A stretch of 43,787 nucleotides of DNA from Deltaproteobacteria bacterium (GTDB lineage: Bacteria; Desulfobacterota; DSM-4660; Desulfatiglandales; Desulfatiglandaceae): NCBI GenBank assembly GCA_019308785.1, contig JAFDHL010000032.1, forward strand, positions 1 to 43,787, read 5' to 3'. This document shows positions 407 to 36,146 of this stretch, one piece after another; position 1 is the first letter of the stretch; each line of letters begins with the position of its first letter. The notes beneath the pieces are model-generated. The model was not told where the DNA came from. It saw nothing but the letters and a program-made list of their open reading frames with translations, and made no database searches. The position numbers and the translations under genes were made by a program.

Positions 407-1207
407 ATGTATTTAGATTATTGGGGTTTCGAGAAGTTTCCATTCGACAATGTGCCTGATACGGACTTTTTTTTCCTTTCCAGGCCGCATAAGGAAGGTT
501 TGGCACGCCTGATATATGCCGTGAAGAGGGGCAAAGGCTGTACATTGCTGTCGGGAGATATTGGCTGCGGCAAAACAACCTTGAGCCGGGTCTTTATAGA
601 AAGGGTATTCGAAGAGAGACTTGATATTGGAATCATATCAAATCCTTGTGCAGACCCCACAGAATTCTTGAAAGATGTTCTTTATCAATTCGGAACGTCC
701 GATGTTCCTGACACCAAGGTGGATATCCTTCAGGTGTTACAGAACAAGCTGATTGACAATATGAATGGGGGGAAAGAGACTCTCCTGATCGTTGATGAGG
801 CGCAGTTACTTTCGGATGAAACACTTGAAGAGATCAGGCTTCTTCTTAATTTTCAATTATCCAAACGGTTCTTGATAATGGTCTTTCTTGTGGGGCAGCC
901 GGAGGTATTTGAAAAAATTAGGAAAAACGAACCGCTCAAGCAAAGGATCGCCATAAAATATTCATTGAGACCATTTAACTTGAGGGAGACAATAGATTAC
1001 ATCCATTTTCGACAGAAAAGAGCGGGCAGGAACGGCAATGCGTTTAGTCGAAAGGCCATTGAAAGGATCTATGATCATAGTGAGGGATTACCAAGAAAGA
1101 TCAATCACCTTTGCGATTTGGCCTTTTTGGTTGGTTTTGGCAATAAAACAAAAATGATTCGTGCAAGGACCGTAAAGGACATTATTGGTGATGGTACGGT
1201 TTTCTGA
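407..1207 (+). CDS. ExeA/XrtA-associated type AAA ATPase
   Basis: This 266-residue cytoplasmic ATPase opens with the family signature YWGFEKFPFDNVPD. It has Walker A GDIGCGKTT near residues 50-58 and Walker B LLIVDEAQ near 126-133, then a C-terminal arginine/lid region containing GLPRKINHLCDLAFL. It belongs to the ExeA/GspA-like AAA group found in type II secretion and in PEP-CTERM/XrtA exopolysaccharide loci. With a polysaccharide exporter and a Wzc-like kinase close by, the exopolysaccharide-associated subgroup fits better than secretin assembly. It lacks the C-terminal peptidoglycan-binding domain of full-length ExeA. Its end overlaps the start of the next gene, suggesting translational coupling. 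No exosortase gene is visible in the window. Confidence 0.85.
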   Translation: MYLDYWGFEKFPFDNVPDTDFFFLSRPHKEGLARLIYAVKRGKGCTLLSGDIGCGKTTLSRVFIERVFEERLDIGIISNPCADPTEFLKDVLYQFGTSDVPDTKVDILQVLQNKLIDNMNGGKETLLIVDEAQLLSDETLEEIRLLLNFQLSKRFLIMVFLVGQPEVFEKIRKNEPLKQRIAIKYSLRPFNLRETIDYIHFRQKRAGRNGNAFSRKAIERIYDHSEGLPRKINHLCDLAFLVGFGNKTKMIRARTVKDIIGDGTVF

Positions 1208-8873: not shown

Positions 8874-8879
8874 ATTTCC

Positions 8880-14406: not shown

Positions 14407-16652
14407 CCGGCAAGAAAATCAGATTAATCCACCTCGTGGAGGACCTTAAAATCGGGGGTCTGGAGCGCGTTGTCGAAACCCTGGCCGACAGGCTTGACAG
14501 GTCCAAATACGATGTGAGCATCTGGTGCCTTGCCGGAGGCGGGGCCATCGCGGACAAAATAACCCGTAAGGGACATGACCTGCAGATACTCAATCTCAAG
14601 ACGTACCACAACCCCATCAACATACTTTCTCTCGCCCTTAGGCTCAGGAGGCATAAGGTAAAGGTGCTCCATGCCCATGGGTATTACGCGTCCACCATGG
14701 GCAGGCTTGCCGCTCTTTTGGCCCGCGTGCCCATCGTCCTGTCGCACGTCCATACCGTAGGAATGCAGTTGAACCGAAGGAACTTGTGGGTGGAAAGGAT
14801 TCTCGGCCTGACCACAGACCGCGTCATCTGTTGCTCGGAGGCTGTGAGAGATTTCATGGTCTCCCGTGCGGGCATAGACCGGCAACGGACAGTGGTCATT
14901 TATAACGGAGTGACCTGCCCAAGGCCGTTATCCCGATCCGTTCAGGAGGATAAAGACAATTTGGTCCGAATCCATATCAGTGCCTCTTTGGTCGAGAACA
15001 AGGGACACCGTTATCTTTTTGAGGCTTTTGCCAGAATAGTCCAACATCATCCGAATGCCATGCTTTCCGTTGCAGGCGACGGCCCGCTTAAATCCGATCT
15101 TTTGAAATATGCAAACGATCTCGGGATTGGCAACCGTGTCGAATTTTTAGGGCTGGTTGACGACATCTGGCCGGTTGTTGCGATAACAGACATTTGTGTG
15201 TTGGCCAGTGTCGATAGGGAGGGACTGGGGATAGCCCTAATAGAGGCCATGTGCCAGGGTAAGCCTGTTATCGGCACACGGGTGGGGGGAATCACCGAGA
15301 TTATTGAAGACGGCGTCAATGGATATTTGGTGCCTCCCAAAAACGTGGAAGCCCTGGCTGGACGGCTTGGAACTTTAATTAACGGCAAAACCGCCCGGCA
15401 ACGTATGGGAAAGGCTGGGTACGCCAAGTTTAGAGAAAAATTCGATGCAAATATCATGATCGGACGTATCGAAAATGCATACGATACATTGGTCGCAAAA
15501 AAGGCTCGTGTCAGGTATTCGGTCTTGTACCTGCACAACTCGGTCAATATCGGCGGGGGTGAGCAGAGCCTTTTAAACCTCTGGCGGAACCTGAACCCGG
15601 ACAGGTACCGCCTCCATCTGCTGATCCCGTCCCGCGGCCCCCTGGTGGAAGAAGCACGTCCCCTTGGCATGGAAGTCCATTATTGCCAGGTTCCCCAATT
15701 GCGTCCGAAAAACCTCGTGTCCATCTCAAAAACCCTGGCCACACTGTCACGCATCTGCTGGCATGAACGGATTGACATCATCCACTCCTACAGCCCCAGA
15801 AACAATGTCCTGTCCGCCGTGATCGGTCGCGCAATGGGCATCCCGGTCATCTGGCACGAGCGCAACCTCGTTTTTGGAAAAGAAACGGATATCTCACGCA
15901 GGCTCTGGTTTCTGCCCAATGGGATTATTTGCAATTCCAAGGCCGTTGCGGAAAGATTCCGGCTTTCATCCGGAATCCCGGACAGGGTCCGGGTTGCCCT
16001 CAATGGAGTGGACGGAAAAAGATTTTCGCCCGGAGATCCTCCGGAAGCAATTTTGAAAGCGTACGGCCTTGAAGGGAAGAGGGTCGTGGGCCTGGTTTCC
16101 AATCTGGGCGGGCGCAAGAACCCGGATTTTCTCCTGGAGGCTGCCCCGACCATCCTTAACAGGTGTCCTGACGTGGTTTTTCTTTTCGTGGGCGGTGAGT
16201 TTTCCGAAGACGACAAGGGACGCAAACAGGAACTCACGCAGCGGGCCGAAAGCCTCGGCCTGCGTGGCCACGTTGTGTTCACGGGTTTTATTCCCGATCC
16301 CTCCGGGCTTATCCGAACGTTTGACGTGGGAGTTGCCGTGACGGAAAGAGAAGCCTGCAGCCGGGCCATTCTGGAAATCATGGCCACGGGCAAACCGACA
16401 GTGGGCTTTGACACGGGCGGGAACCCGGAACTGATTGACGATGGAGTGACGGGTGTTCTCGTGTCTGTCGGGGACATTTCCGCTTTTGCCGACGCTGTTT
16501 GTCGTATCCTGGAAAACAAAGGCATGAAACAGCGCATGGGCCGCACGGCCCGGGAACGTATGGAGCGGTGCTTTGACGTCAAGGTTAATGCAAAAAGGAC
16601 CGAGGCCATTTATGAAGGTCTTGTCCTGCAGGCGCGCAAGGAAAGCCTTTGA
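14403..16652 (+). CDS. Tandem GT4-GT4 fusion glycosyltransferase
   Basis: One 749-residue frame holds two complete GT4-type glycosyltransferases. The first (about 1-365) has RLIHLVEDLKIGGLERVV, an acceptor-side HAHGYYAS, and the donor site ALIEAMCQGKPVIGTRVGGI with the E-x7-E pattern. The second starts at about residue 370 with VLYLHNSVNIGGGEQSLLN, has IIHSYSPRNNVLSAV, and its own donor site REACSRAILEIMATGKPTVG. The start is ATG 14403, overlapping the methyltransferase stop as ATGA; the longer in-frame upstream extension is a shadow of that gene. Both halves keep their key residues, so the protein may add two sugars in succession. GC content is visibly higher than in most neighbours. Confidence 0.88.
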   Translation: MTGKKIRLIHLVEDLKIGGLERVVETLADRLDRSKYDVSIWCLAGGGAIADKITRKGHDLQILNLKTYHNPINILSLALRLRRHKVKVLHAHGYYASTMGRLAALLARVPIVLSHVHTVGMQLNRRNLWVERILGLTTDRVICCSEAVRDFMVSRAGIDRQRTVVIYNGVTCPRPLSRSVQEDKDNLVRIHISASLVENKGHRYLFEAFARIVQHHPNAMLSVAGDGPLKSDLLKYANDLGIGNRVEFLGLVDDIWPVVAITDICVLASVDREGLGIALIEAMCQGKPVIGTRVGGITEIIEDGVNGYLVPPKNVEALAGRLGTLINGKTARQRMGKAGYAKFREKFDANIMIGRIENAYDTLVAKKARVRYSVLYLHNSVNIGGGEQSLLNLWRNLNPDRYRLHLLIPSRGPLVEEARPLGMEVHYCQVPQLRPKNLVSISKTLATLSRICWHERIDIIHSYSPRNNVLSAVIGRAMGIPVIWHERNLVFGKETDISRRLWFLPNGIICNSKAVAERFRLSSGIPDRVRVALNGVDGKRFSPGDPPEAILKAYGLEGKRVVGLVSNLGGRKNPDFLLEAAPTILNRCPDVVFLFVGGEFSEDDKGRKQELTQRAESLGLRGHVVFTGFIPDPSGLIRTFDVGVAVTEREACSRAILEIMATGKPTVGFDTGGNPELIDDGVTGVLVSVGDISAFADAVCRILENKGMKQRMGRTARERMERCFDVKVNAKRTEAIYEGLVLQARKESL

Positions 16653-16654
16653 CC

Positions 16655-17777
16655 ATGAAAATCGGCATTGACGCAAGGGAAATCCAAAACGGCGTGGTGA
16701 CGGGCATCGGGAGGTCCCTTGCCAACTTCCTGGAGTATTTTGAGGCACACGACCAAAAACACGTCCTTTTCCTTTTTTCCGAAAAGCCCTTGCCTATGCG
16801 GTTTTCCGACAAGATCGGTCAGGTGGTCATCCCCTCCTGCCCGACGTTTTTCTGGGATCAGGTGAAGCTTCCCCTGGCCATCAAGGCCCACGGGATTGAT
16901 TTTTTCTACTCTCCCTACTACAAGGCTCCTATGCTTACTCGCACCTGTACTGTCAATCAGGTACTTGATTTGATGTTTCTTGTGTTTCCTCTTTACCGAA
17001 AAAAGTTGGGGATTTTGGGAAGATATTACTATGCCATATTTGGAAGGGTGTTTGCCCGAAAATCAGTCAGTATAATCACCGATTCAGAACATGCGAAACA
17101 GGATATAATAAGACTCTGGAGGATTGAGCCGGAAAAGATTGCGGTGATTCCTTTGGGTGTCGGAAATCGGTATGCCTGTTAAGGATATTGAATTGCTCGC
17201 CCGGGTCAGAAAGGAGCTTGGCCTGCCTGATAGATATGTGCTTTATCTCGGTAACTTCAAACCTCACAAAAATATTGAGTCGCTCGTAAGGGCTTTCGGG
17301 AAAATAGCCGGGGGATTCCCCGAATACAAGCTGGTCCTGGCGGGGCCGCTTGATGAACACGGTCTTAAGATCCAAAATCTTGTTGCCGGTCAAGAACTCA
17401 TGGATAGGATTGTTTTTACTAACACCATCAGGGAAGAAGATCATCCGGAGGCCCTGTTGTCGATGGCAGACCTTTTTGTCTTTCCTACCTTATACGAAGG
17501 TTTCGGCTTGCCCCCTTTAGAAGCCATGGCTTGTGGCACTCCTGTAGTTGCATCAAACCTTACAGCGGTGCCCGAAGTTATAGGTGATGCAGGTGTAATG
17601 GTAAATCCGCTTGATGTTGATGAACTGAGTCGAGCTATGGCAGATTTGTTAGCTGATCCTGAAAAAAGGGAGTGTTACTCTCAAAAAGGCCTGGAAAGAT
17701 CCAGGCTCTTCAGTGAAGAGGATACCTCAGGAAAAATTTATAGGCATATTATTAAACTGATAGAGGATATAAAATGA
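16655..17777 (+). pseudogene. GT4 glycosyltransferase split by a frameshift
   Basis: The first part (16655 to about 17173) is the N-terminal half of a mannosyltransferase-like GT4: KIGIDAREIQNGVVTGIGRS, FFYSPYYKAP, IITDSEHAKQDI and AVIPLGVGNRY. The second part continues in another frame from about 17175 with PVKDIELLARVRKELGLPDR, YVLYLGNFKPHKNIES and the donor motif FPTLYEGFGLPPLEAMACGT to the stop at 17777. Joining them needs one base lost or two gained near 17174. As written, translation ends at 17180-17182. Downstream translation could restart at GTG 17157 or ATG 17172 but would yield only the C-terminal domain. ATG 16655 is the chosen start (AAGGAAAG upstream). Confidence 0.82.
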
Positions 17778-18761
17778 AAATTTTAATCACGGGCGGCGCG
17801 GGATTTATAGGGGCCAATTGTGCCACTTATTTTGCTAATAAAGGTCATAAAGTTGTTCTTTTTGACAACCTATCACGAATTGGCTCAGATAAGAATCTCC
17901 AGTGGATCAAAAATGTATGTTCGGTCGAGTTTGTAAAAGGAGATGTGAGGAAATTTGAAGATCTGATTGATTTAGTTACTCAAAAAGGGCCATTTGATTT
18001 AATCCTTCACATGGCTGCTCAGGTGGCGGTTACAACGTCCGTTGTAAATCCACGTGAGGATTTCGAGATTAATGCCTTAGGCACCTTTAATCTCTTAGAG
18101 GCCATTCGAAAGTATGACCCGGAAACAACTTTAATTTATGCCTCTACCAATAATCGAAAGAGATGGTCGATATATTTACCAGGACCTGCCTGAAGGTGTT
18201 GACGAAAAGCGGAATCTTGACTTTCATTCCCCTTACGGATGCTCAAAGGGTTCGGCTGATCAGTACTGCCGGGACTACTATAGAATCTATGGTCTGAAGA
18301 CGATTGTGATGCGGCAGTCGTGCATTTATGGCTATCGTCAATTCGGGGTTGAGGACCAGGGTTGGGTTGCCTGGTTCTGCATAGCCGTCGCATTAGGAAA
18401 ACAGATCACCATTTACGGCGACGGCAAACAAATTCGGGACGTCCTTTTTATCGATGATCTTGTCCGGGCCTATGAACTTGCGTATGAGAAAAGGGATCGG
18501 ATTGCAGGCAGGGTATACAATATTGGCGGAGGTCCAAAAAATACACTCTCGCTTCATGAACTCATCCGGTATTTGGAAAAGCTCAAAGGCGAAAGGATTC
18601 CGTTGGCGTATGACGACTGGCGACCAGGAGATCAGAAGGTCTTTATTGATAATATCTCTTTAGCTGAAAACGATTTTGGATGGAAGCCGGTTATAAAGAC
18701 TGATGAAGGAATAGAAAAGCTTTACAAATGGACATACGAAAACAGGCATATTTTTGAGTGA
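17774..18761 (+). pseudogene. NAD-dependent sugar epimerase (CDP-paratose 2-epimerase-like), split by a small deletion
   Basis: The N-terminal half is a clear extended short-chain dehydrogenase with ILITGGAGFIGANCATYF (NAD site), LFDNLSR and LILHMAAQVAVTTSV. It runs to IYASTN at about 18150, after which the frame is wrong. The true continuation is PLPIIERDGRYIYQDLPEGV, SPYGCSKGSADQYCRDYYRI (the YxxxK catalytic pair) to the stop at 18761. Relatives have a KVYGGMED-like segment between ASTN and LPII; it is absent here. The 10-mer CTACCAATAA lies at the junction and could encode both STNK and LPII edges, so recombination between two copies would remove about 32 bases, which fits the observed frame change. 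Overlaps the previous gene by ATGA. Confidence 0.8.
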
Positions 18762-23142: not shown

Positions 23143-23826
23143 ATGGTTGTGGCCGTACATCAACCTCAGTACCTGCCATGGTTGGGGTATTTTAATAAGA
23201 TTGACAGAGCAGATATATTTGTCCTGTTGGATAATGTGCAGTTCAAAAAGAACGAGTGGCAGAACAGGAACAAGATCAAGACGGCCCAGGGATGGCAATG
23301 GCTGACGGTTCCGGTCAGGTATAAGTACCCTCAGTTGATAAATGAAGTGGCAATCAATACCTCGGTAAAATGGCAGCATAAACAGAGACAGTCGATCTTG
23401 ACCAATTACAAAAAATCGCCATACTATCATAACCTGGATGAATTCCTTGAAGAGATTTTTGCCTCTCACTGGGAGATGATTTCACAACTGAATATAGCTG
23501 TGATAAGGAGATTGGTCGCTTTGCTCGGGATAGACACACCCCTGTTTGTGGCATCAGAACTCGGAGAGCTTCCCCATGACGCGGATGAAAGACTCGTTGC
23601 CATAACAGAGTATTTCGGTGCAGACACATATCTGGCAGGAAGCGGCGGCAGCCAATATATGGATCTACAGAAATACGCAAACAGTGGTATCAAGGTAATT
23701 TTTCAGGACTACAAACATCCTGAATATAATCAACTTTTTCAAGAATTTGAGCCATATATGTCGGTAATTGACCTTGTACTTAACCATGGAGACAAGAGCC
23801 TGAGTATCTTACGGGGGAACAAATGA
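23143..23826 (+). CDS. WbqC-like protein
   Basis: A 227-residue member of the WbqC family found in O-antigen and exopolysaccharide clusters. The diagnostic N-terminus is VAVHQPQYLPWLGYFNKI, followed by DIFVLLDNVQFKKNEWQNRN and WLTVPV, and later DTYLAGSGGSQYMD and VIFQDYKHPEYNQ. The family is thought to take part in making amino- or acyl-modified sugars, often beside DegT aminotransferases and deacetylases, as here; its exact reaction is not settled. It has no membrane segment. Its stop overlaps the start of the PIG-L gene (ATGA at 23823), so the two are coupled. Confidence 0.88.
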   Translation: MVVAVHQPQYLPWLGYFNKIDRADIFVLLDNVQFKKNEWQNRNKIKTAQGWQWLTVPVRYKYPQLINEVAINTSVKWQHKQRQSILTNYKKSPYYHNLDEFLEEIFASHWEMISQLNIAVIRRLVALLGIDTPLFVASELGELPHDADERLVAITEYFGADTYLAGSGGSQYMDLQKYANSGIKVIFQDYKHPEYNQLFQEFEPYMSVIDLVLNHGDKSLSILRGNK

Positions 23827-24440
23827 ATATACTCGCTATCGGGCCTCATCCCGACGATATTGAAATAGGCTGTGGAGGAACGCTAATCAAATATGCCAAG
23901 AGGGGCCATAAAATATTTCTGTTGCTCATTACAAAGGGGGAAAAGGGAGGAAACACAGAACTAAGATACCAAGAACAGCTAAAAGCGGCAGAGATTATCG
24001 GTGCCAGGGACGTTTTCTGGGCCGGGTTTAAGGACACCGAACTGCCCGACAAGGGCAATGAGATGATTCATACGGTCGAACGGTATATTGACTCGATTAA
24101 ACCACATTTTATTTTTATCAATTTTTTCGACGATACACATCAGGATCACCGCACTGTTAATAGATCCGTTCTCTCCGCCACGAGGTATGTGAAAAATGTT
24201 CTGTTTTACGAGGTACCAACCACCAACAATTTCACACCCCAAGTGTTTGTGGATATTTCCGAATCTCTTGACAAGAAGATCAAGGCACTTGAGGCCCACG
24301 AGTCCCAGGTAATGAAAACCAATATCGAGGACCTATCAATCGTTGAGCTTGCTCGATCGAGTGCGAATTTTCGTGGTATCCAGGGGAGGGTCAAGTATGC
24401 AGAGGCATTTTGCCCTCTCAGACTCTTTATCAATATCTAA
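23823..24440 (+). CDS. PIG-L/LmbE-family N-deacetylase
   Basis: A 205-residue zinc-dependent deacetylase of the PIG-L/LmbE family. The zinc motif PHPDD is at residues 8-12 (NILAIGPHPDDIEIGCGG) and a second cluster FDDTHQDHRTV (about 98-108) supplies a further His and the catalytic acid region. These enzymes remove acetyl groups from N-acetylated sugars. With the WbqC-like protein before it and a DegT aminotransferase after it, it probably belongs to a route that makes a modified amino sugar for the polymer. The length is normal. The ATG overlaps the preceding stop codon, so it is translated by coupling. Confidence 0.9.
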   Translation: MNILAIGPHPDDIEIGCGGTLIKYAKRGHKIFLLLITKGEKGGNTELRYQEQLKAAEIIGARDVFWAGFKDTELPDKGNEMIHTVERYIDSIKPHFIFINFFDDTHQDHRTVNRSVLSATRYVKNVLFYEVPTTNNFTPQVFVDISESLDKKIKALEAHESQVMKTNIEDLSIVELARSSANFRGIQGRVKYAEAFCPLRLFINI

Positions 24441-24507
24441 CCCCTTAGATTGAAGTTTACCGAAGCGAGCTAATGAAAGGCGTTCGTCCGCGTAGTTTTT
24501 GAAAGGC

Positions 24508-24530
24508 ACTGATTGATAACCTCGTAAAAA
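24508..24530. repeat. Solo copy of the CTCGTAAAAA repeat end
   Basis: ACTGATTGATAACCTCGTAAAAA matches both termini of the hairpin element at 38413-38590. Here it lies in a 99-base gap, only 10 bases before the chosen start of the DegT aminotransferase, so it may be the scar of an excised or truncated element. Confidence 0.7.
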
Positions 24531-24539
24531 TTAAACCCA

Positions 24540-25610
24540 TTGAAATCTGCAAAGCATCACACATCTATTCCTCACTCCAGGCCAACTCTGGGGCATGAGG
24601 AAATACAGTTCGTATCAGAGGTCATCGGTTCGGGGCATATTGCTCAAGGGGCGATTGTCTCGCGTTTTGAGCAGGCCCTGGCAAAAAATGCGGGCATTAA
24701 GGGTGCTGTGGCGTGCAGTTCGGGAACATCGGCCCTGCATTTGACACTCCTTGCCATGGAAATCAGGTCCGGGGACGAGGTAATTTTTCCAAGCTATGTC
24801 TGCTCCGCCCTTTTAAATGCCGTTCGATATGTTGGCGCTACTCCTGTGCTGGCAGAAATTAATCCATACACCTGGAACATTGATCCTGAAGATGTGAAAA
24901 AGAGATTAACCCATCGGACCAAGGCCATAATCGTACCACATCTTTTTGGGCTGGCAGCGGATCTAAACCAATTGATCTCATTGGGTGTGCCGGTCATCGA
25001 GGATTGTGCCCAGGCAGTGGGAGCCACCTGTGACGGTAAAAATGTCGGCAGCCTGGGCTTTGCGGCCATTTTCTCTTTTTATGCGACAAAGGTGATCACC
25101 ACAGGCGAAGGGGGGATGGTCCTGTCTAATTCCCAGGATCTGCTAAACCGGATCCGTGACCTCAGGGAGTACGACCAGAAGAGCACTCTGCGTGTACGAT
25201 ACAATTACAAGATGACCGATATACAGGCCTCAATGGGGCTTGCCCAACTGGATCGGCTTCAGTCATTTATCCGTAAGAGGAGGTCAATCGCCCAACAATA
25301 CTACAAGGGCTTCGATTCTTTGCCCTTTCAATTGCCGTTAAGGGATGATGGTCACATATATTACCGCTATGTCATAATACTGGAAGAGGACTCGGGACCA
25401 CAGATCCTTGCCCTGGCAAAAAAGGGTATTGAGTGCGCCAGGCCTGTATATATGCCCCTCCACCGTTATTTGAAAACAAGAGGCTACCGTAGAACGGAGC
25501 AGATCTGGAAGAAGTCCCTTTCGATTCCAATCTATCCTTCCTTAACAGACGATGATGTTAATCGAATTATTGATTCGGTCGTTGAAGTTCTCGGGGAGCT
25601 CATCTCGTGA
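24540..25610 (+). CDS. DegT/DnrJ/EryC1-family sugar aminotransferase
   Basis: A 356-residue PLP enzyme. It has the family opening IPHSRPTLGHEEIQFVSEVI, GAVACSSGTSALHLTLLAM, the PLP-ring aspartate in VPVIEDCAQAVGA, and the PLP lysine K184 in FYATKVITTGEGG. Enzymes of this group aminate keto-sugar nucleotides. The WbqC-like and PIG-L genes upstream point to an amino-sugar branch. The start is uncertain: TTG 24540 has no ribosome-binding site and lies next to a repeat remnant, so the native upstream sequence may have been replaced; homology only demands a start by about IPHSRP. The next gene overlaps by GTGA. Confidence 0.9.
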   Translation: MKSAKHHTSIPHSRPTLGHEEIQFVSEVIGSGHIAQGAIVSRFEQALAKNAGIKGAVACSSGTSALHLTLLAMEIRSGDEVIFPSYVCSALLNAVRYVGATPVLAEINPYTWNIDPEDVKKRLTHRTKAIIVPHLFGLAADLNQLISLGVPVIEDCAQAVGATCDGKNVGSLGFAAIFSFYATKVITTGEGGMVLSNSQDLLNRIRDLREYDQKSTLRVRYNYKMTDIQASMGLAQLDRLQSFIRKRRSIAQQYYKGFDSLPFQLPLRDDGHIYYRYVIILEEDSGPQILALAKKGIECARPVYMPLHRYLKTRGYRRTEQIWKKSLSIPIYPSLTDDDVNRIIDSVVEVLGELIS

Positions 25611-26767
25611 AGACTAAATTCCATCTTCAAGTGTCATGGTACACCTTCTTATTTGTTGTTTTTGTGACGTTGATTCTCCTTTTTCCTCCTACGAAGAGGT
25701 TCTTTTCATCGCTTGGGCAAAGGTGGTTCTATATTACGGCCCTTTCCTTTACAGTATCTTTTTGCCTCACACCTCTTTTTAGATATCTTGCTATCAAATG
25801 GGGCCTCCTGGATAGTCCCGATGCAAGGAAGATCCATAAGAAAGCTACTCCCCTGCTTGGAGGTGCGGCGATTTTCGTTGCTTTTGGTATCGGCATTCTG
25901 ATCAACGGGGTCTATTCCACAGAACTCTTTGCCATTCTTGCAGCATCATCTATCGTATTTGTCACAGGTCTCATTGACGACTTTAAGGAGGTCCCTGCGT
26001 CCATAAAGCTTTTCGTTCAAGTTGTAAGCACTGTACTGGTGATGTCTTTTGGGATAGTGCTGAGAGTCTTCCCAACAGGCCTGGGACCTTTTTCTCAGGT
26101 CTTAAACATTGCATTGACCGTTTTATGGGTGGTGGGAATTACCAATGCAATGAATTTTTTCGATGGGATGGATGGTCTGGCTACCGGATTAGGAGCGATT
26201 CTCTCCTTTTTTCTCGGGATAGTGGCCTTTCAGACAGCTCAGCCCTTTCTCGGTTGGATTGCTGTGGCAATGATGGGAAGCTGTCTTGGTTTTTTACCCT
26301 ATAACTTCAGGTCAAAGAGGAGCGCATCTATTTTTTTGGGAGACGGGGGAAGTACATTTATCGGTTTTCTTCTTGCCTGTCTTGCTGTCTATGGAGATTG
26401 GTCAGAGAGCAACCCTATTGTGGCCCTGGCATCACCGGTGCTGATATTCTGGGTCCTGATCTTTGATATGGCGCATATAACTGTGGATCGAATTGTTACC
26501 GGAAAGGTTTTAAGCTTCAAGGAGTGGATCGAATATGTTGGTAAGGATCATCTCCACCACAGACTGTCCAGTGTGCTGGGAGGACCGAAAAAGGCTGTAC
26601 TTTTCATTTATTTTTTGAGTTTGGCACTCGGGATAAGTGCCGTAGTGCTCAGAAACGCCAGGACCATTGACGCTATTCTACTGCTCCTGCAAGCCCTGCT
26701 GATCGTTCTTCTTGTGACCATTCTGGAAAGGCACGGACACGGGCTGTCTGGAAATGATAAAACTTAA
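25607..26767 (+). CDS. WecA/MraY-like polyprenyl-phosphate sugar-1-phosphate transferase
   Basis: A 386-residue integral membrane enzyme with about 10-11 helices. It carries the DDxxD-like VTGLIDDFKEVP (about residue 120-131), NAMNFFDGMDGLATG (the NxxNxxDGxDGLA motif), IFLGDGGSTFIGFLL and KDHLHHRLS, all hallmarks of the WecA/TagO/MraY family. It transfers a sugar-1-phosphate (often GlcNAc-1-P) from a UDP-sugar to undecaprenyl phosphate, the first step of repeat-unit assembly. Being last in the polysaccharide locus with a GTGA overlap to the aminotransferase gene, it is the likely initiating enzyme. After it a new promoter and a different gene set begin. Confidence 0.92.
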   Translation: MKTKFHLQVSWYTFLFVVFVTLILLFPPTKRFFSSLGQRWFYITALSFTVSFCLTPLFRYLAIKWGLLDSPDARKIHKKATPLLGGAAIFVAFGIGILINGVYSTELFAILAASSIVFVTGLIDDFKEVPASIKLFVQVVSTVLVMSFGIVLRVFPTGLGPFSQVLNIALTVLWVVGITNAMNFFDGMDGLATGLGAILSFFLGIVAFQTAQPFLGWIAVAMMGSCLGFLPYNFRSKRSASIFLGDGGSTFIGFLLACLAVYGDWSESNPIVALASPVLIFWVLIFDMAHITVDRIVTGKVLSFKEWIEYVGKDHLHHRLSSVLGGPKKAVLFIYFLSLALGISAVVLRNARTIDAILLLLQALLIVLLVTILERHGHGLSGNDKT

Positions 26768-26800
26768 CCCAGGGTTTTCGGAATGTTAGAGATATTTGAT

Positions 26801-26829
26801 TTGACTTTATTTTTTTGTATATATATACA
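26801..26829 (+). promoter_or_regulatory. Promoter of the Cys/Arg-rich peptide gene
   Basis: TTGACT (26801-26806) and TATACA (26824-26829) are separated by 17 bases in an AT-rich gap that includes a run of alternating TA. This is the only clear sigma-70-like pair before the peptide gene. A separate TATAAT stands at 27299-27304, just before the radical SAM gene, but no matching -35 was found. Confidence 0.55.
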
Positions 26830-26874
26830 TTTATTTAGATTGCCAGTTAAAAATGTTCCAAATGGAGGGGAAAG

Positions 26875-27204
26875 ATGAAAAAGCATGATAAAGATCCTGA
26901 CCCTCAAAAAACGGAGAAGAGAGAAGACAGGCCCGATGAGCAGAGGCGCGAATTCATCAAAAAGCTGGCCTGGGTAACTCCTGTGGTTACAACCCTTCTG
27001 ATCACGCATGATTTTTCCACTCCCGATTCTACCAAGGCGCAGCCGGTGTGTGTCAGACAATGTGCATGTCGCAGGGAATCCCCGTGCAGGACGGTCCAGC
27101 CGTGTCGGAGACAGTGTTGTGTGCAGACTATCCAGCCGTGTAGAAGACAGCCATGCAGGCGAGAGCCATGTCGCGTAGAGCCAGTATGCGTTCGGCAATG
27201 TTAA
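26875..27204 (+). CDS. Tat-like Cys/Arg-rich peptide, candidate modified-peptide precursor
   Basis: A 109-residue protein in three parts. Residues 1-23 are highly charged. Residues 24-43 resemble a twin-arginine signal: QRREFIKK then the hydrophobic LAWVTPVVTTLLI, with TKAQP at 53-57 as a possible cleavage area. Residues 59-109 hold 12 Cys and 12 Arg, arranged as repeats (QPCRRQ twice, CRREPCR), and both ends read VCVRQC. A strong ribosome-binding site (GGAGGGG) precedes the ATG. It sits directly before a radical SAM/PqqD gene, so it is a good candidate substrate of a peptide-modifying system. It could instead be a metal-binding or disulfide-rich exported protein. No named family was recognised. 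Confidence 0.75.
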   Translation: MKKHDKDPDPQKTEKREDRPDEQRREFIKKLAWVTPVVTTLLITHDFSTPDSTKAQPVCVRQCACRRESPCRTVQPCRRQCCVQTIQPCRRQPCRREPCRVEPVCVRQC

Positions 27205-27306
27205 CAATAATAGTGAAATAGCCTGCCTTTGTTGCCTTTATTCAATCACTTAGGCACAAGGACATCCCCGCATCTTCCCGTCAGTTTAATACTATTTCTA
27301 TAATAC

Positions 27307-28914
27307 ATGATGCCAGATCCGGCCCAAAATACAACTATGAAATACCATGACCTGGATAAGAAATTTCTGGTTCTTAAAAAAGATTCATTTTTTGTCCCTG
27401 GCCCGAAAAGAGGGGCGATTTATGATATCAGCGCCCACAGGCTCTATCATCTTGAGGAAAGACTGGCCGGCATTTTAAAACGATCATTAGAAGGGCTTAG
27501 CGTGAAAGATGCCTTCACTAAAGTGGGAATTGCTCGTGAAGATGAAGCGAAAATAACTCTTGAAATGCTTCTCAATATGAGCTGTATTTCAATGGAGGCA
27601 AAGGCTATGGCCTTTCCTGATGTCAAGATAGAAAAGTCTCCTGTAAAACCAAGGGTGGCGTGGCTTGAACCCACAGACAGGTGTAATCTTTTTTGTGTGC
27701 ACTGTTATGCGGAAAGCCGTCTTGGACGGAAGGATGAAGAGCTTTCCACAGAAAGATGGTTTTCGATCATAGATGAACTTGAAGAGATCGGTGTGGAGCA
27801 AATCGTTGTTACCGGTGGCGAGCCGCTTTTAAGGAATGATTTGCTTGAAATCCTGAGACGTATTTTAAGCAAGGAAGGGCTCCAGTATATTCAAATACTG
27901 ACCAACGCGAGTCTCTTTGCCCCTTCCCCCCTGTTAGATTTTATTGCTGAGAAACAGGTTGGTGTTGGGATTTCTTTTTATTCACACAGACCGGAGGTTC
28001 ATGACCAGGTAACCCGGACTCCCGGAAGCTGGGAGAAGACTGTAAATGGCATTAGGCTCCTGGTGGACAAGGGCATTAGTCCTGCTGCCAATATTGTGCT
28101 TACAAAAATTAACGAAAGAGATGAAAATGATACCAGGAAGTTCCTTGTTTCACTTGGGCTTGAGAACGAAAATATTATCAGCAATGTTGTCCTTCCCACC
28201 GGCAGGGGCTGTCACAGTGATTACCAGATAAAGAATTACGATTATTTCATTAGAAAGAGTTATGCCTTTGATAATTGTTTTGGACCCGGTGGGTGGAAGG
28301 ATTATCAGGGGACCTGCTGGCGGGGGAAATTTACCATCAAATCGAATGGAAAATTGAGCCCCTGTACCATGTGCCGAGAGATAGAGCTGGGAGACATCCG
28401 TCACAACAGCTTGAAAAAACTAATAGAAGAGGGGGCCTTTGATACTGTCTGGGATATTGACTTTGATTCCACCAAGGGGTGTTCTGAATGTGAATTGCGC
28501 TATGCCTGTTCAGATTGCCGTGCCTTGACCTATGCATTTACAGGGGATCTTTATGCCAAAGACCCCACCTGTCCGTATGATCCTCACACCGGCAATCCCG
28601 CAGACCTGTTTTTTCCTCCTTTGTTTCGTTCACCATCTTTTTCTCTGAAAGCCAAGCCAAAAAGAAGAGAAGATATTGTACACAGCCGGGTAGGAGAAGA
28701 ACTGGTTCTGTCCAACAGGGAAGAGGGAATACACCATAACCTGAATGCTGTGGCAGGAGAAGTGTGGGCTCTTCTTGATGGTGAGCATTCCCTTGAGACG
28801 GTTGTAGATGTCATCGGGCAACGGTTCGACAGAGAGCGGTCACTCCTTGAAAAAGACATTATTCAGCTTGCAGAACAGTTTGCCCGGCTCGGATTGTTGG
28901 AACATGGCCTATAG
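27307..28914 (+). CDS. Radical SAM/SPASM peptide-modifying enzyme with terminal PqqD-like domain
   Basis: A 535-residue fusion. Residues ~15-95 form a small winged-helix-like region (SAHRLYHLEERLAGILKRS), possibly a peptide recognition element. The radical SAM core has the cluster motif CNLFCVHC (C126, C130, C133) and VVTGGEPL (GGEP 170-173). A SPASM-type region follows with Cys in TCWRGKF, LSPCTMCREI and GCSECELRYACSDC, fit for one or two auxiliary iron-sulfur clusters. The C-terminal ~85 residues (HHNLNAVAGEVWALLDGEHS) are PqqD-like. Such enzymes crosslink or alter ribosomal peptides; the Cys-rich peptide gene just upstream is the likely substrate. Start choice among ATG 27307, 27310 and 27337 is uncertain as no good ribosome-binding site is seen. 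It overlaps the kinase gene by 11 bases. Confidence 0.9.
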   Translation: MMPDPAQNTTMKYHDLDKKFLVLKKDSFFVPGPKRGAIYDISAHRLYHLEERLAGILKRSLEGLSVKDAFTKVGIAREDEAKITLEMLLNMSCISMEAKAMAFPDVKIEKSPVKPRVAWLEPTDRCNLFCVHCYAESRLGRKDEELSTERWFSIIDELEEIGVEQIVVTGGEPLLRNDLLEILRRILSKEGLQYIQILTNASLFAPSPLLDFIAEKQVGVGISFYSHRPEVHDQVTRTPGSWEKTVNGIRLLVDKGISPAANIVLTKINERDENDTRKFLVSLGLENENIISNVVLPTGRGCHSDYQIKNYDYFIRKSYAFDNCFGPGGWKDYQGTCWRGKFTIKSNGKLSPCTMCREIELGDIRHNSLKKLIEEGAFDTVWDIDFDSTKGCSECELRYACSDCRALTYAFTGDLYAKDPTCPYDPHTGNPADLFFPPLFRSPSFSLKAKPKRREDIVHSRVGEELVLSNREEGIHHNLNAVAGEVWALLDGEHSLETVVDVIGQRFDRERSLLEKDIIQLAEQFARLGLLEHGL

Positions 28915-29734
28915 CTTTTCCCTCAGATATCTTGACACATCTCTGGTCTTTAAGTCCGCCAAGGCCGCCCCAATCGATCATATCTCCTTTATTTACGGAA
29001 AGATGCAAGAAAATTCGCCGTCCGAAAAAAGGAAGGTTTATACGATAAAAAAAGGGATTAGGGGCTACAGCCTCATCCATAATAAAAATCGTATGTTCAG
29101 GAATTTCGGCCTTGATACAGCCATAGAAAATATTGAGATTTCAATTGAAATGACGGTGGTATCTGAAAATCCTGGAGTCGTGTTTTTTCATGCAGGTACG
29201 GTTTCAGATATGGAGGGCAATATTTCCCTGATTGCCGCTGAAAGCGGCGAGGGAAAGACAACCCTTTGCGCCATGTTGGCGCAGAGGGGACTCTTTTCGG
29301 AGGGCGATGAACTTGTAGGTATTTCCCCTGAAATGCCTCTCAGGCCAATTCCCTTTAAAAAGGCATTGAAGGTGAGAAAAGAGAGTTTGCCTTTTCTAAT
29401 GGAAAGTGGAAAGAGGCTTATTATAGAAACAGAAAAACGTGGCGAAAGCAATTTGATATATTGGTTGCCGGATAATATCGCCGATACGGTTCCAGAAACT
29501 AATAAGGAGATTCGGAGGGTTTTTTTCCTGCGCTTTTCTCTCGAAGGACCAAATAGCGTTTCGCATGTATCAGCGCAGGAAGCGATAAAGAGACTTGCAG
29601 ACGCATGTCATGATTTTTCAGAGAAGAGATCGTTGGCTATGGGGACTATACTCTTTATCGTCAATCAAGCAGAGATAATTGAGATCGCTTACAATCACCC
29701 GGACTATGCCGTTTCATGTATCCAGGATGTTTAA
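28904..29734 (+). CDS. HPr-kinase-like protein (HprK-related kinase A type)
   Basis: A 276-residue protein with a P-loop, AAESGEGKTTLCAML (about residues 112-126), placed as in the C-terminal kinase domain of HPr kinase, followed by FSEGDELVGIS, whose acidic residues resemble the HprK second motif. HprK-related kinases that travel with PqqD-like proteins and nucleotidyltransferases are a known but biochemically uncharacterised group, and this gene keeps that company. ATG 28904 is chosen, giving an 11-base overlap with the radical SAM gene, so the two are coupled. Its stop shares TTAA with the stop of the convergent methyltransferase gene. It probably phosphorylates a protein, peptide or small molecule; the target is unknown. 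Confidence 0.8.
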   Translation: MAYSFSLRYLDTSLVFKSAKAAPIDHISFIYGKMQENSPSEKRKVYTIKKGIRGYSLIHNKNRMFRNFGLDTAIENIEISIEMTVVSENPGVVFFHAGTVSDMEGNISLIAAESGEGKTTLCAMLAQRGLFSEGDELVGISPEMPLRPIPFKKALKVRKESLPFLMESGKRLIIETEKRGESNLIYWLPDNIADTVPETNKEIRRVFFLRFSLEGPNSVSHVSAQEAIKRLADACHDFSEKRSLAMGTILFIVNQAEIIEIAYNHPDYAVSCIQDV

Positions 29735-31122
29735 GGTTTTTTTCTTAATATGAGGGCATGAAATACAGACGGACTACCCTGGGAGCCTGCCTGTTTTAGT
29801 GAACTGAATCGTAGATTGTAGATATGGGGATAGAGATCACCTAAGGCTTGTTTCAACATTTCAGGCGTAAAGGCTAATATGGGGAGGGGATCCTGGCTGA
29901 GATGAGATAAAAGGCTTTGATTCAGGATTGTCAGGGACATCCTTTCAAGCGTTGTTACATCAAGGTCCATGTCGAAAAAGTCAGCCATTTTTTCTAACCT
30001 GACATCAAATCCGATTCTGATTGCAATTTCCTCGAGATGGCCAAAGTGGATGGCATATTCCGTGTGATCAGGGAGATGGACCGCTACAGGGTATCTCCAT
30101 GGGCTTCCATACTCGGTGATAAGCGCAAATCCTCCTGGAGTTAGCAGGAGATGGATATGTTCTAAAAGTTGCCAGGCACCGAGGTTTACCAGAAACTCGG
30201 GGAAGGCATCCTTCACCGTAACATCAAAATCATTAATGTATTTGAGGGCCGGAATTGCTTCTGCGGGAATTTCGTGGCCGGTGTTCCTGTTCATCCATTC
30301 CTTTTTCACAAATACAGAGGGAAGATCGGCAATCATCTCATTGGCGATAATGAGGGAAAATTTTCCTGCGATAAATGGCGGAGCTAATGCATCACCCAAT
30401 ACCTGTGCGATTGTATTTGAATACATCCGTGTATATTCCTTCTGGCCTTCTAATAATACCGGGGAGAGTTCCAGGAGGACGTAATAGAGGTTTTGAAAGA
30501 CAATAGATTGATTCTGATGGAGGTAGCCTAAGAAATCTCTTGCCACAAAGCCTGTTCCACCACCAATCTCAAGAATGTTTGTGCATTTTTCCATAATTTC
30601 CATTTCACAGAATTTTTCTGCCAGCCTTGCCCCGTATGAAAGTCCTCTCAGAGCTGGATGAGGCTGCTGGTATACATGGGAAATGGTTGTTTCGTGGGAT
30701 TCGAATTGCTCGATGGCATCGGTGATTTGTCCTGTGTGGTATTCGTGTAACAGTCCCGTATTATCAATGAATTCGTGAGCAGAATCCCGTTCGCTGAGGA
30801 TCTCCATGGCGATCTCCATATGAGGAGTCGGGGATGGATGCTTTTCAGTATCTTCGATGAACTGGAGGAAAAGGTCTGGTTCCTTTGAAAACTTGTCTGA
30901 AGTGGACTTCACCTGTGTTTGGTCCATATTCAGTTTAGCGGCAATATCGGTTAACGTAATCTCGCCCTGACAGAGGGTTAAAATACGCGCCTCATCATCT
31001 GTTATCTCTCTGATAGTTGGTTTGTTTTCCTCAGGGGGACCCGCTAAGAAAGGTTTTTTTCCGGGAGAGTAATACAGGATCATGCAGGGAAGGAGGATAG
31101 GCTGTCGGTTCATGACAGTCAC
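29731..31122 (-). CDS. MidA/NDUFAF7-like methyltransferase with N-terminal winged-helix-like extension
   Basis: A 463-residue protein. The first ~95 residues carry a helix-turn-helix-like pattern (DDEARILTLCQGEITLTDIAAKL), which may be a peptide- or partner-binding module. The methyltransferase part has motif I NILEIGGGTGFVARDFL (about 182-198), YYVLLELSPVLLEGQ (acidic strand end about 218) and LIIANEMIADLPSV (about 257-270), matching the SAM-MT family that includes MidA and the arginine methyltransferase NDUFAF7. Translation starts at GTG in a GTGA overlap with the PqqD gene. A protein-arginine methyltransferase relative next to a peptide with 12 Arg is notable. The family call is moderate; target is inference. 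Confidence 0.75.
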   Translation of the reverse strand: MTVMNRQPILLPCMILYYSPGKKPFLAGPPEENKPTIREITDDEARILTLCQGEITLTDIAAKLNMDQTQVKSTSDKFSKEPDLFLQFIEDTEKHPSPTPHMEIAMEILSERDSAHEFIDNTGLLHEYHTGQITDAIEQFESHETTISHVYQQPHPALRGLSYGARLAEKFCEMEIMEKCTNILEIGGGTGFVARDFLGYLHQNQSIVFQNLYYVLLELSPVLLEGQKEYTRMYSNTIAQVLGDALAPPFIAGKFSLIIANEMIADLPSVFVKKEWMNRNTGHEIPAEAIPALKYINDFDVTVKDAFPEFLVNLGAWQLLEHIHLLLTPGGFALITEYGSPWRYPVAVHLPDHTEYAIHFGHLEEIAIRIGFDVRLEKMADFFDMDLDVTTLERMSLTILNQSLLSHLSQDPLPILAFTPEMLKQALGDLYPHIYNLRFSSLKQAGSQGSPSVFHALILRKKP

Positions 31123-31439
31123 TCAGCGAGACTTGCAGCAGGTGTTAGTGTCAGCAGGTCTTGATCCCGCAATTGGAGCAGGAGGGCAATAAAATCTTGT
31201 TTTATAAGGTCTGCTTCGGAATCAAAATGCCCTATGAGTTCATCGAGAATATCACGACATCTGCGTTTTCCATCAATCCTTTCCCAGATGAAGGAGGCAG
31301 TTGGATTTAGAACCCAGAGTTTTTCTTCCGCCTCTTTCCGGGTATCACGTCTTACAAGATAGTCTTCATCTTTCACCCTGCGGACCATGATTGATTCATC
31401 TTTAAAGGGTATGGCATTCATGTCCAGATCAGTTGACAT
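31119..31439 (-). CDS. PqqD-family peptide-binding protein
   Basis: A 106-residue stand-alone PqqD-like protein: EKLWVLNPTASFIWERIDGKRRCRDILDEL is the typical pattern in which a short beta-region leads to the NxTAxxIW helix. PqqD proteins bind the leader of a precursor peptide and present it to a radical SAM enzyme. It resembles the group found beside HprK-related kinases. It is encoded on the minus strand, coupled to the methyltransferase by a GTGA overlap, and diverges from the nucleotidyltransferase gene across 154 bases. Together with the PqqD-like tail of the radical SAM protein, the island thus has two PqqD modules. Confidence 0.88.
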   Translation of the reverse strand: MSTDLDMNAIPFKDESIMVRRVKDEDYLVRRDTRKEAEEKLWVLNPTASFIWERIDGKRRCRDILDELIGHFDSEADLIKQDFIALLLQLRDQDLLTLTPAASLAE

Positions 31440-31593: not shown

Positions 31594-32823
31594 ATGATAG
31601 TTCCAAATTTTGTTATTTCCTTCCAAGATGAACTCATAATGATCGTTAATCAAAATATGAATCTGACAAGAGAAGAAAAGTTATTGAGACTGATTGCCGC
31701 GCAGAGGCTGGAAAGCACGCAAGCTGCAGCCATAAGGCGTGAGGTCAATAATGGGCTTGAGTGGTACAGGCTTATCAATATCGCGTTATATAATGGACTG
31801 GCCTCTTTATTGTACCGGCACTTAAAAGACCTTGAGCTGTTTCCACTTGCCCCGGAATGGTTTGAGGAAGCCCTTGAGAAGGTCTATAACAAAACAGTCT
31901 TTCATAATTTGAGGATACTTAGGTTCCTCAATGATCTGGGTCAAATTCTCAAGAAGGAGAATATTCCGGTAATTATTCTCCAGGGCGCGGCCCTGTTAAT
32001 GTCTGTTTACGATGATCCTGGTGTTCGCCCCATGGAAGATATAGATTTGATGGTCAGGCCGGATCATAGAAGGAGGCTTCAGCGGATTTTTCAAGAGATG
32101 GGATTTTCGTCTGATTCCATCTACCCTGATACATACAGGAAAGGGATTATCTATATTGATATCCATGTTGATATACTCTCAAGCGAACGTATCCATGCAA
32201 GAAAATGGGTTATGAATACAGGGCCTGAAGATATCTGGAACTCGGCGCTTCCATTGATGGATAAATCAATACCCCTTTACAGGCTTACCCCGTTTGATAA
32301 CCTGATTGCCCTTTCCAATCACCTGTTAAAACATAATCTTGAACGCCTGAAATGGTTTATGGACATACGGGAGATTATACTGGCTGAATCCGGCACATTC
32401 GACTGGGACAGATTTGTCTTTCGCTGCAGGGAAAGCGGGAGCGACCGCTGTGTTCTCTATATATTGCTGCTGGCAAGACGTCTTTTGGGTTTGGAAGTGC
32501 CTGAGATAATTTTTGACAGCTTTGGAAGAAAGAGGCTTTCTTCTATTGAAAAAACGATTCTAAGACTGCGGCTTAAAAATAAAGATGTGGGGCGACTGTT
32601 CCAGGTCTTATGGCTTTTTCAAATTAATAAGAAAAGTGAACAATTTCGATTTATTATTGAGAATATCTTTCCAAGGAAGGAAATTATGAATCAGATTTTT
32701 GTGTCCTCTCCTCGCGTGCCTCCCAGCTATACGCTTAGATTTTTCAATATCCTCTCACATGGGCTTTATGACATTTTCTCAGCTTTCCGCCATATCATTT
32801 TCAGCAGGCTCCCGCGGTTATGA
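31594..32823 (+). CDS. Nucleotidyltransferase-fold protein (NTP_transf_5 type)
   Basis: A 409-residue protein with a nucleotidyltransferase-like core of the uncharacterised NTP_transf_5 family. Key strands are IPVIILQGAALLMSVYDDPG and RPMEDIDLMVRPDHRRRL (about 127-160), with the paired acidic residues of the active site in EDIDLMV, and IYIDIHVDIL further on. The C-terminal 200 residues are helical, with ALSNHLLKHNLERLKWFMDI typical of the family. Members occur with HprK-related kinases and PqqD proteins in peptide-modification and exopolysaccharide loci, as here. The start is uncertain: ATG 31594 is given, but ATG 31639 (MIVNQNMN) is equally possible. Possible role: nucleotidyl transfer to a peptide or sugar; no evidence from sequence decides. 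Confidence 0.85.
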   Translation: MIVPNFVISFQDELIMIVNQNMNLTREEKLLRLIAAQRLESTQAAAIRREVNNGLEWYRLINIALYNGLASLLYRHLKDLELFPLAPEWFEEALEKVYNKTVFHNLRILRFLNDLGQILKKENIPVIILQGAALLMSVYDDPGVRPMEDIDLMVRPDHRRRLQRIFQEMGFSSDSIYPDTYRKGIIYIDIHVDILSSERIHARKWVMNTGPEDIWNSALPLMDKSIPLYRLTPFDNLIALSNHLLKHNLERLKWFMDIREIILAESGTFDWDRFVFRCRESGSDRCVLYILLLARRLLGLEVPEIIFDSFGRKRLSSIEKTILRLRLKNKDVGRLFQVLWLFQINKKSEQFRFIIENIFPRKEIMNQIFVSSPRVPPSYTLRFFNILSHGLYDIFSAFRHIIFSRLPRL

Positions 32824-34979: not shown

Positions 34980-36146
34980 TTAGATTCCTTCAAATGCCCT
35001 TTTGTAAATATCTTCCGCAACCTTGGCCGTCATCGGTCTTGGATTATTCATGATCGGTCTTTCTATCTTCATTGCAGCTTCGGCCATATCGGAAATAGAA
35101 TCTTCCGGAATCCGGAGATCCTTAAGTGTTCGCGGAATCCCAATATCCCGGGCAAGGTCCCGGACTGCTTTCACCACAAGGGTAGCCGTATCACGCTCCG
35201 AACACCCTTCTATTTCTTCTCCCATTGCCCAGGCAATACGCGCGAACTTGTCTATATTCCCGGGATAGTTGTATTCAAGTACATACGGAAGCATTAATGC
35301 ATTTGCCATGCCGTGGGGGACATCAAAGAACGCCCCGAGGGGATAGGCAAGCGCGTGGACTGCCCCAACCCCGGACATGGCTAAACCCAGGCCGGCCAAA
35401 TAGCTGGCCTTCATCATAAAATTGCGAAACCGGATGTCACTCCCACTAAAGACAGCTCCCCTCAAATTGTCAGAGATGATCTCAATAGCCGTGAGGGAAA
35501 GCGGTTCACTCATGAAGTGGGCTTAAAGGGAAGTAAAAGACTCAATCGCATGGGTCAGGGCGTCCATACCGGTGGAGGCGGTTACATCCGGAGGGAGTCC
35601 GAGTGTGAGTTCAGGATCCAGAATGGCCGTGTGAGGATAAAGAAAAGGGCTGTTGATGCCGCCCTTTGACTTTGTTTCCCTCATTGTAAAGACCGATGTG
35701 AAGGTCGCCTCACTTCCTGTGCCTGCCGTAGTCGGAACCATAATTGTGGGAAGCCCCGGTTTTTTTACGAGGTTAAGGCCAACATAATCCAGGGCCTTAC
35801 CCTCATTCTTACCAAGAATAGCAATGGCCTTGGCAACATCCATTGTGCTGCCACCCCCAACGGCTATGACGCAGTCTGCCTTCTCTTTTTTTGCCAGTTC
35901 AGCCCCCGTATCGGCCAGGGCAGGCGATGGTTCAGGCGTCACCTCAAAGTAAGGGATGGCCTTGACAGGGCTTTCCTGAAAGGTTTTCTGAATACGTGCG
36001 CACATTTCTGTTTCACTCAGGGCTCGATCTACAACAAGAAGCGCCCTGGATGCTCCCAGTAACTGACATTCAGATATAATCTGATTAATGGCGCCAACTC
36101 CAAAAATCGTCTTCTTCACCCCTTCAGTGGTTACCAAACTCTCCAT
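34980..36146 (-). pseudogene. Iron-containing alcohol dehydrogenase interrupted by one in-frame stop
   Basis: A 389-codon frame that is continuous apart from one TAA at 35523-35525. The upstream part (36146-35523) has TTEGVKKTIFGVGAINQI, CVIAVGGGSTMDVAKAIAI (NAD site) and STGMDALTHAIESF. The downstream part (from about 35520) continues as SEPLSLTAIEIISDNLRGAV and GAVHALAYPLGAFFDVPHGM. Asp and His of DALTHAIE and the two His of HALAYPLGAFFDVPHG form the iron site and are kept. Relatives have a Lys-Ala pair (SKKANPISD-like) exactly where the stop falls, so AAA or AAG to TAA fits. Either a recent nonsense mutation or a sequence error; readthrough cannot be excluded. Confidence 0.85.

Follow-up and report, generated by a model that had tools for sequence, protein, structure and literature searches.

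The arrangement of an RRE, a radical SAM domain and a SPASM or Twitch domain is common to SkfB, CteB and SuiB (excerpts of PMC6231123). In lasso peptide biosynthesis, the leader motif YxxPxL is recognised by B1 proteins (excerpts of PMC10368454), and in the pseudomycoidin pathway the kinase K phosphorylates a Ser of the precursor, with N linked to the addition of a hexose on that phosphate (excerpts of PMC9266682 and PMC8498205). PMC9062424 lists 22 unreported radical SAM pathways, among which could be the enzyme family considered here, whose targets carry C-x-P repeats; in the open-licence PubMed Central literature we found no description of such targets or of this family.

Here we analyse a gene pair from a bacterium labelled Deltaproteobacteria (Desulfobacterota, Desulfatiglandaceae; assembly GCA_019308785.1, contig JAFDHL010000032.1), and refer to the whole 43,787-nt stretch of DNA as the window. 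The first gene encodes a small protein with a Cys- and Arg-rich repeat tail, and the second a radical SAM/SPASM enzyme. Our preferred reading, to which we give a probability of about 0.62, is that the small protein is a RiPP-type precursor and that the adjacent enzyme alters its Cys residues, most likely by forming thioethers. Features of the window are collected in Table 1, and related loci are denoted by L numbers.

Table 1. Positions of the gene pair, its sequence motifs and its neighbours in the window.
Feature	Position	Strand	Evidence or remark
XrtA/PEP-CTERM-type ATPase	407..1207	+	TIGR03015 222.8 bits, under cut-off 324.5
Exopolysaccharide genes WbqC, PIG-L deacetylase, DegT aminotransferase, WecA-like glycosyltransferase 4	23143..26767	+	syntenic in L087/L088/L095/L096
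Likely ribosome-binding site GGAGGGG	26864..26870	+	read from sequence; 4 bases upstream of ATG
109-aa precursor-like protein (leader 1-57, Cys/Arg tail 58-109)	26875..27204	+	orthologue L012:1081-1449
RREFIKK, Tat-like basic motif before hydrophobic stretch	26944..26964	+	invariant in L012
WVTPVV, lasso-like [WYF]xxPx[LVMI] leader motif	26971..26988	+	YVAPVV in L012, YVKPVV in L013/L014
Opening VCVRQC	27046..27063	+	residue 58; VCIRQC in L012
Cys/Arg repeat tail, 12 Cys and 12 Arg	27049..27201	+	residues 59-109
QPCRRQ copy 1	27097..27114	+	residue 75
QPCRRQ copy 2	27133..27150	+	residue 87
Closing VCVRQC	27184..27201	+	residue 104; codons differ from opening copy
Radical SAM/SPASM enzyme, 535 aa, presumed maturase	27307..28914	+	PF04055 1.1e-24, PF13186 6.1e-5, PF05402 3.9e-10
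N-terminal RRE-like domain, enzyme residues 20-97	27364..27597	+	AF2 secondary structure; CteB 5wgg aligned from model residue 26
CNLFCVHC, radical SAM CX3CX2C motif	27682..27705	+	
SPASM region, Cys 337, 353, 392, 395, 401, 404, 422	28315..28572	+	seven Cys invariant in 34/34 aligned enzymes
C-terminal PqqD domain of enzyme	28699..28899	+	PF05402 residues 465-531
HprK-related kinase	28808..29734	+	TIGR04352 1.4e-14, 53.9 bits, cut-off 200; 58% identical copy in L012
Methyltransferase (Methyltransf_28)	29731..31122	-	
Stand-alone PqqD-family protein	31119..31439	-	PF05402 6.5e-14
NTP_transf_5 nucleotidyltransferase-like protein	31594..32823	+	PF14907 3.6e-47

The small ORF is short, has a low-complexity composition and is overlapped by an antisense ORF (26764-27207), features expected of a chance ORF or low-complexity artefact, a reading that retains practically no probability. 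It is contradicted by the ribosome-binding site, the conserved gene order and an orthologue of 122 residues in a MAG labelled Deltaproteobacteria (L012), encoded in the same place, just 5' of an enzyme 64% identical to that of the window. The 47 tail codons aligned with L012 comprise 17 identical, 21 synonymous and 9 nonsynonymous codons (Nei-Gojobori pN 0.12, saturated pS 0.87, dN 0.13), and the 57 aligned leader codons comprise 17, 16 and 24, respectively (dS 1.29, dN 0.36). The small ORF is therefore a real gene. The sequence-only reading would have been refuted by a loss of the Cys positions, and these are kept: 11 of the 12 tail Cys align with Cys in L012, the one orthologue of the Cys/Arg form known, with the same result when Cys is masked before alignment. 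The remaining tail differences are in-frame indels of whole, Cys-bearing units of 5 (PCRRE) and 13 residues, which supports the growth by internal duplication that had been proposed. No orthologue of the Cys/Arg form was found among 148 relatives, in which a leader-only profile matched the window itself alone. Matches to the small protein in genomes G074, G080, G029 and G085 were rejected, the ORFs of the G074 and G085 loci including no Cys-repeat protein; three further matches in its own genome have E > 0.09, two of them with internal stops.

The tail had been described as containing equal numbers of Cys and Arg. The count holds for residues 59-109 of the window protein (51 residues, 12 of each), but the equality is a coincidence, with 14 Cys and 12 Arg in L012. 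Elsewhere in the six reading frames of the window, stretches of 51 residues without a stop reach at most 7 Cys. The two QPCRRQ units (residues 75 and 87) and the VCVRQC at the two ends of the tail (residues 58 and 104) are confirmed, as is the DNA repeat CCAGCCGTGT, present at 27096 and 27132 and nowhere else in the window, with an in-frame spacing of 36 bases. Five repeated 5-mers in the tail are matched by 0 of 20000 shuffles, indicating repetition beyond composition, and the PC dipeptides (5 of the 6 Pro) and the six CR dipeptides are matched by 44 and 403 of 20000, respectively. The description of the tail as near-palindromic is dropped because its mirror symmetry (4 matches of 26) is reached by 10907 of 20000 shuffles, which is chance level; the ends are related as a direct repeat and not as mirror images. 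V and R are encoded by different codons in the two VCVRQC copies (GTC/GTT, AGA/CGG), which are therefore old copies maintained by selection.

The adjacent enzyme reaches the cut-off of no NCBIfam model (best 129 bits against 500), nor do its homologues L035, L063, L049 and L013 (among the best 25 matches each for L063, L049 and L013). The closest solved sequence is the thioether synthase SkfB (4.7e-36), followed by anSME (6.2e-22). An AlphaFold2 model of the enzyme (34 sequences, mean pLDDT 87.5) is nearest in fold to CteB (Z 25.3) and SkfB (Z 24.6), which are tied, and then to SuiB (23.8) and anSME (23.3), with enzymes of other chemistries also among the matches within 2 Z units. CteB is aligned from model residue 26, and the match therefore takes in the RRE part of CteB, most of model residues 1-107 and 436-535 being barely probed in VIA-align. 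The likeness of the enzyme to SkfB and CteB favours thioether formation, to which we give an even chance as the chemistry involved. The enzyme was found in 1 of 85 genomes of the order, which makes the cassette sporadic; viral contigs gave only 3 short, remote radical SAM matches, and plasmids gave 3 records, all below 60% identity and with partial cover.

A scan of GTDB contigs gave 67 loci with enzyme homologues, in Bacillota, Bacteroidota, Latescibacterota, Krumholzibacteriota, Chloroflexota, candidate phyla, archaea and Deltaproteobacteria-labelled MAGs. An adjacent C-x-P repeat ORF, defined as a same-strand ORF within 500 bases of the enzyme that carries 5 or more Cys, of which three quarters have Pro at +2, is present at 38 of the 56 closer loci (L012-L067) and at none of the 11 remote loci (L068-L078), the count being automatic and its criterion itself containing C-x-P; 18 of the closer loci lack such an ORF by this test. 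More than 1.5 kb from the enzyme, 5 of 2959 ORFs qualify, all on the enzyme's strand, and these are likely enzyme targets too. Among 41 hand-curated peptides, Pro stands at +2 of 449 of 468 Cys and no other position is nearly constant, a curated figure since loci were removed by hand (L017, L020, L031, L051, L055, L060, L061, L062, L065, L067, L068, L069, L074 and L078) and peptides were set by hand after the C-x-P motif had been seen (L052, L067, L023 and L037); L079 and L081, which repeat L016 and L063, and the near relative L080 are left out of the total. The enzyme and Cys-repeat pairs form a widespread and apparently undescribed family. Cys is the likely modified residue because it alone is common to all targets, including that of the window.

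The sequence-only reading had suggested thioether crosslinks made by the SPASM enzyme. The substrate relation is strongly supported by adjacency across phyla and by the RiPP leaders that some family members carry, and the thioether chemistry is plausible; that the adjacent enzyme acts on the 109-aa peptide we regard as very probable. Conserved Cys would also be expected of an unmodified metal-binding or redox-active surface protein, with the substrate of the enzyme elsewhere, and the 12 Cys, which include CAC and CC pairs, could bind metal. Such a protein is nonetheless very unlikely, given that Cys-repeat ORFs follow the enzyme family across phyla at the 38 loci counted above, some with RiPP leaders, and that the small protein has no match in Pfam, NCBIfam or the PDB (best PDB E 0.24).

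Several members of the family have distinctive architectures. Two peptides exceed the curated cut-off of the Nif11 RiPP leader (32.3 bits), scoring 43.2 and 38.2 bits, and C-x-P repeats lie behind a Nif11-like leader with a VAGG end at L049:2845-3231 and L056:5598-5940. At L016:6275-6799, L063:6277-6846 and L083:816-1388, a Tat-like start and a dense C-x-P-x array are combined in one protein beside the enzyme; that of L016, the one scanned in this group, contains a PG_binding_1 domain. In a Woesearchaeota MAG (L032:2291-4717), three tandem C-x-P array proteins precede the enzyme and another lies upstream; in the one scanned, a Tat signal exceeds the TIGR01409 cut-off. Two neighbouring repeat proteins at L061:8225-8834, with CWPWRGGGGG and CWPRRRPP units, are encoded about 2 kb from the enzyme. 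At L013:721-1278 and L014:2163-2597 the PqqD protein has a Tat-like N-terminus (PF10518 just under cut-off in L014) and the peptide has none, and the Tat-like anchor seems to sit on either the peptide or its PqqD partner.

The window has a homologous maturase next door, as in the rest of the family, but not the Pro at +2 of nearly every Cys: C-x-P occurs at 0 of 12 Cys in the window and 1 of 14 in L012, against the near-constant Pro elsewhere. Arg occupies +2 at 6 of 12 and 6 of 14 Cys, and Pro directly precedes Cys 5 and 6 times, respectively. The Latescibacterota peptides L013 and L014 combine both features (CRPxPC), and their enzymes are of the same C-terminal PqqD type. In a quick enzyme tree, the window and L012 pair with support 99, their deeper placement being unsupported. 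Both enzymes carry Q167, E196 and R260, where all 32 other compared enzymes share V, Q and A, respectively; the three columns were found after looking and the two rows share one ancestor, so that they give a specificity lead and not a test. The form in the window is best read as a divergent branch that replaced the C-x-P of the family by C-R-R or C-x-R, and since its peptide is without C-x-P, its recognition must differ.

The motif for sulfatase maturation is C-x-[PA]-x-R, with C-x-P as its core, and the 449 C-x-P sites of the family are in keeping with an enzyme that acts like an anaerobic sulfatase maturase, forming formylglycine or making another single-residue Cys change to give a reactive repeat protein. 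anSME is moreover the second family by sequence and within 2 Z units in fold, and no constant crosslink acceptor is visible in the peptides. We nevertheless judge this quite unlikely: SkfB lies far above anSME by sequence score, and Arg at +4 is no family feature, the commonest residues there being C, Q and P. In the window tail, +2 is never Pro nor Ala and the C-x-[PA]-x-R site is absent, which disfavours formylglycine there.

In the leader, RREFIKK and the hydrophobic stretch behind it may form an export signal or membrane anchor, though the Tat profiles TIGR01409 and PF10518 have no match in the window protein. WVTPVV is the presumed RRE-binding element. Its general form precedes the first Cys in 25 of 43 family peptides drawn from the curated set above, where shuffled leaders would give 1.3, for a motif picked after looking. 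Between this motif and the tail, Thr39, Thr40, Thr44, Ser48 and Ser52 are conserved in L012 and are, by analogy, candidate kinase sites.

The gene pair lies in a Wzx/Wzy-type exopolysaccharide cluster (Poly_export, Wzz/kinase, Wzy_C, flippase and glycosyltransferases), followed by the HprK-related kinase gene, whose true start is probably 28904. In the Latescibacterota loci L087 and L088, NTP_transf_5 is followed by a PqqD protein with a Tat-like N-terminus, then by the Cys/Pro peptide, the enzyme, the HprK-related kinase and exopolysaccharide genes; homologues of the window's WbqC and DegT genes are present in L087, and of its PIG-L, WecA-like, PEP-CTERM-type ATPase and HD protein genes in both. 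L095 and L096 both encode the enzyme, a PIG-L and a WecA-like protein; a P-loop kinase was recognised in them by eye, and L096 has the ATPase and HD protein as well. The contigs end inside the Cys/Pro peptide (L095) and inside the enzyme gene (L096). L012 has the order ATPase, peptide, enzyme, kinase, its contig ending inside the kinase gene, and NTP_transf_5 was not found in its genome. L097 has NTP_transf_5, enzyme, kinase, HD protein and ATPase, with no Cys peptide on its 6.7-kb contig. The XrtA/PEP-CTERM-type ATPase thus lies beside the cassette in L012, L087, L088, L096 and L097. All seven C-terminal PqqD-type enzymes found, that of the window included, lie beside such genes, and the HprK-like kinase, PqqD, NTP_transf_5 and exopolysaccharide genes go with the pair across phyla. 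The proposed link of the small protein to the exopolysaccharide is thereby supported as gene order (synteny).

In the window, genes for a glycosyltransferase, a GDP-mannose dehydratase-like epimerase and an iron alcohol dehydrogenase each appear as two ORFs, with apparent split genes at 7404-8496, 16649-17777, 17774-18761 and 34980-36146; these are apparently assembly errors or pseudogenes, and a Wzy-like gene may be cut too. A Phd/YefM-like antitoxin (under the Pfam cut-off) and a PIN-domain protein are encoded inside the exopolysaccharide cluster (8586-9209).

The conserved exopolysaccharide locus also suits a structural polycation, in which the Arg-rich tail (about +9 over 51 residues) binds an acidic exopolysaccharide and the Cys form disulfides or enzyme-made matrix crosslinks. 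Tail charges, tabulated with L057 left out, are +9 in the window, +11 in L012, +8 in L014 and +5 in L013. However, equally basic tails occur in the Bacillota loci L029, L041 and L028, other members are neutral or acidic, and two such loci with listed neighbours (L019 and L035) have no exopolysaccharide genes by eye. We consider a polycation of this kind unlikely.

Under the preferred reading of a RiPP-type precursor, the N-terminal part with RREFIKK and WVTPVV would be a leader or anchor and would dock on the RRE and PqqD domains of the enzyme and on the PqqD protein, and the enzyme would modify the conserved tail Cys unit after unit, most likely through thioether (sactionine or ranthionine) bonds. 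The product would then probably cross the membrane or be anchored at it, and act at the cell surface with the exopolysaccharide of the locus. That the cassette keeps its place among exopolysaccharide genes points to a RiPP-like product with a structural role at the surface, and export with a surface role is about evenly balanced in our estimate. Further tailoring by the kinase and by NTP_transf_5, the family (PF14907) to which lasso N proteins presumably belong, is possible at somewhat less than even odds. By analogy with pseudomycoidin, the HprK-like kinase could phosphorylate a conserved Ser/Thr of the leader or linker (TT..T...S...S) and NTP_transf_5 could glycosylate via the phosphate, making the protein a covalent anchor or primer of the exopolysaccharide; this elaboration is improbable. 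If true, it would place a RiPP-type conjugate in cell-surface architecture instead of among antibiotics, with a maturase re-tuned from C-x-P to C-x-R. More generally, an enzyme family without an NCBIfam name tracks C-x-P repeat proteins through Bacillota, candidate phyla, Bacteroidota, archaea and Deltaproteobacteria-labelled MAGs, and the natural C-x-P to C-x-R substrate switch, with its three enzyme position changes, opens substrate recognition and the chemistry by which repeated Cys are modified to direct tests.

Among known systems, TIGR04117 (Syntroph_Cxxx) likewise describes a Cys-repeat target of a radical SAM enzyme, with Cys-Xaa-Xaa-Xaa units. This model has no match in the window protein (E <= 1) or L012, matches L032 and L016 weakly (16.2 and 12.9 bits; cut-off 50 bits), and gives 3 weak matches, none over cut-off, across 297 genomes of the phylum. 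The His-Xaa-Ser (Hxs) system resembles L016 in having a repeat protein with a peptidoglycan-binding domain beside a radical SAM enzyme; the repeat here is Cys-based, and by Pfam the window protein is without a PG-binding domain. In the TvgA/TvgB system, one radical SAM enzyme also modifies a repeated motif many times, but, as described in the available part of PMC9062424, the motif is TVGG, without Cys, and the product is cyclopropylglycine. With the lasso tailoring set (PqqD-like B1, HPr-kinase homologue K and nucleotidyltransferase N; excerpts of PMC8498205, PMC9266682 and PMC10368454), the window shares PqqD, HprK-like and nucleotidyltransferase genes and a YxxPxL-type leader (WVTPVV, YVAPVV in L012) together with a PqqD-like B1 counterpart in the stand-alone PqqD protein. 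In place of the B2 peptidase and C cyclase of lasso systems it has a radical SAM enzyme, and no B2 transglutaminase-like peptidase or C asparagine-synthetase-like cyclase is found among the 38 window ORFs scanned with Pfam. Sactipeptide and ranthipeptide systems (SkfB, CteB) share the RRE, radical SAM and SPASM architecture and a Cys-rich substrate encoded beside the enzyme. The window has the CX3CX2C motif and SPASM Cys, RRE domains (PqqD by Pfam, N-terminal in the model) and a leader with a Cys core conserved in one orthologue, and it differs from these systems in its long 12-Cys repeat array, its extra C-terminal PqqD domain, its Tat-like leader and its place in an exopolysaccharide locus.
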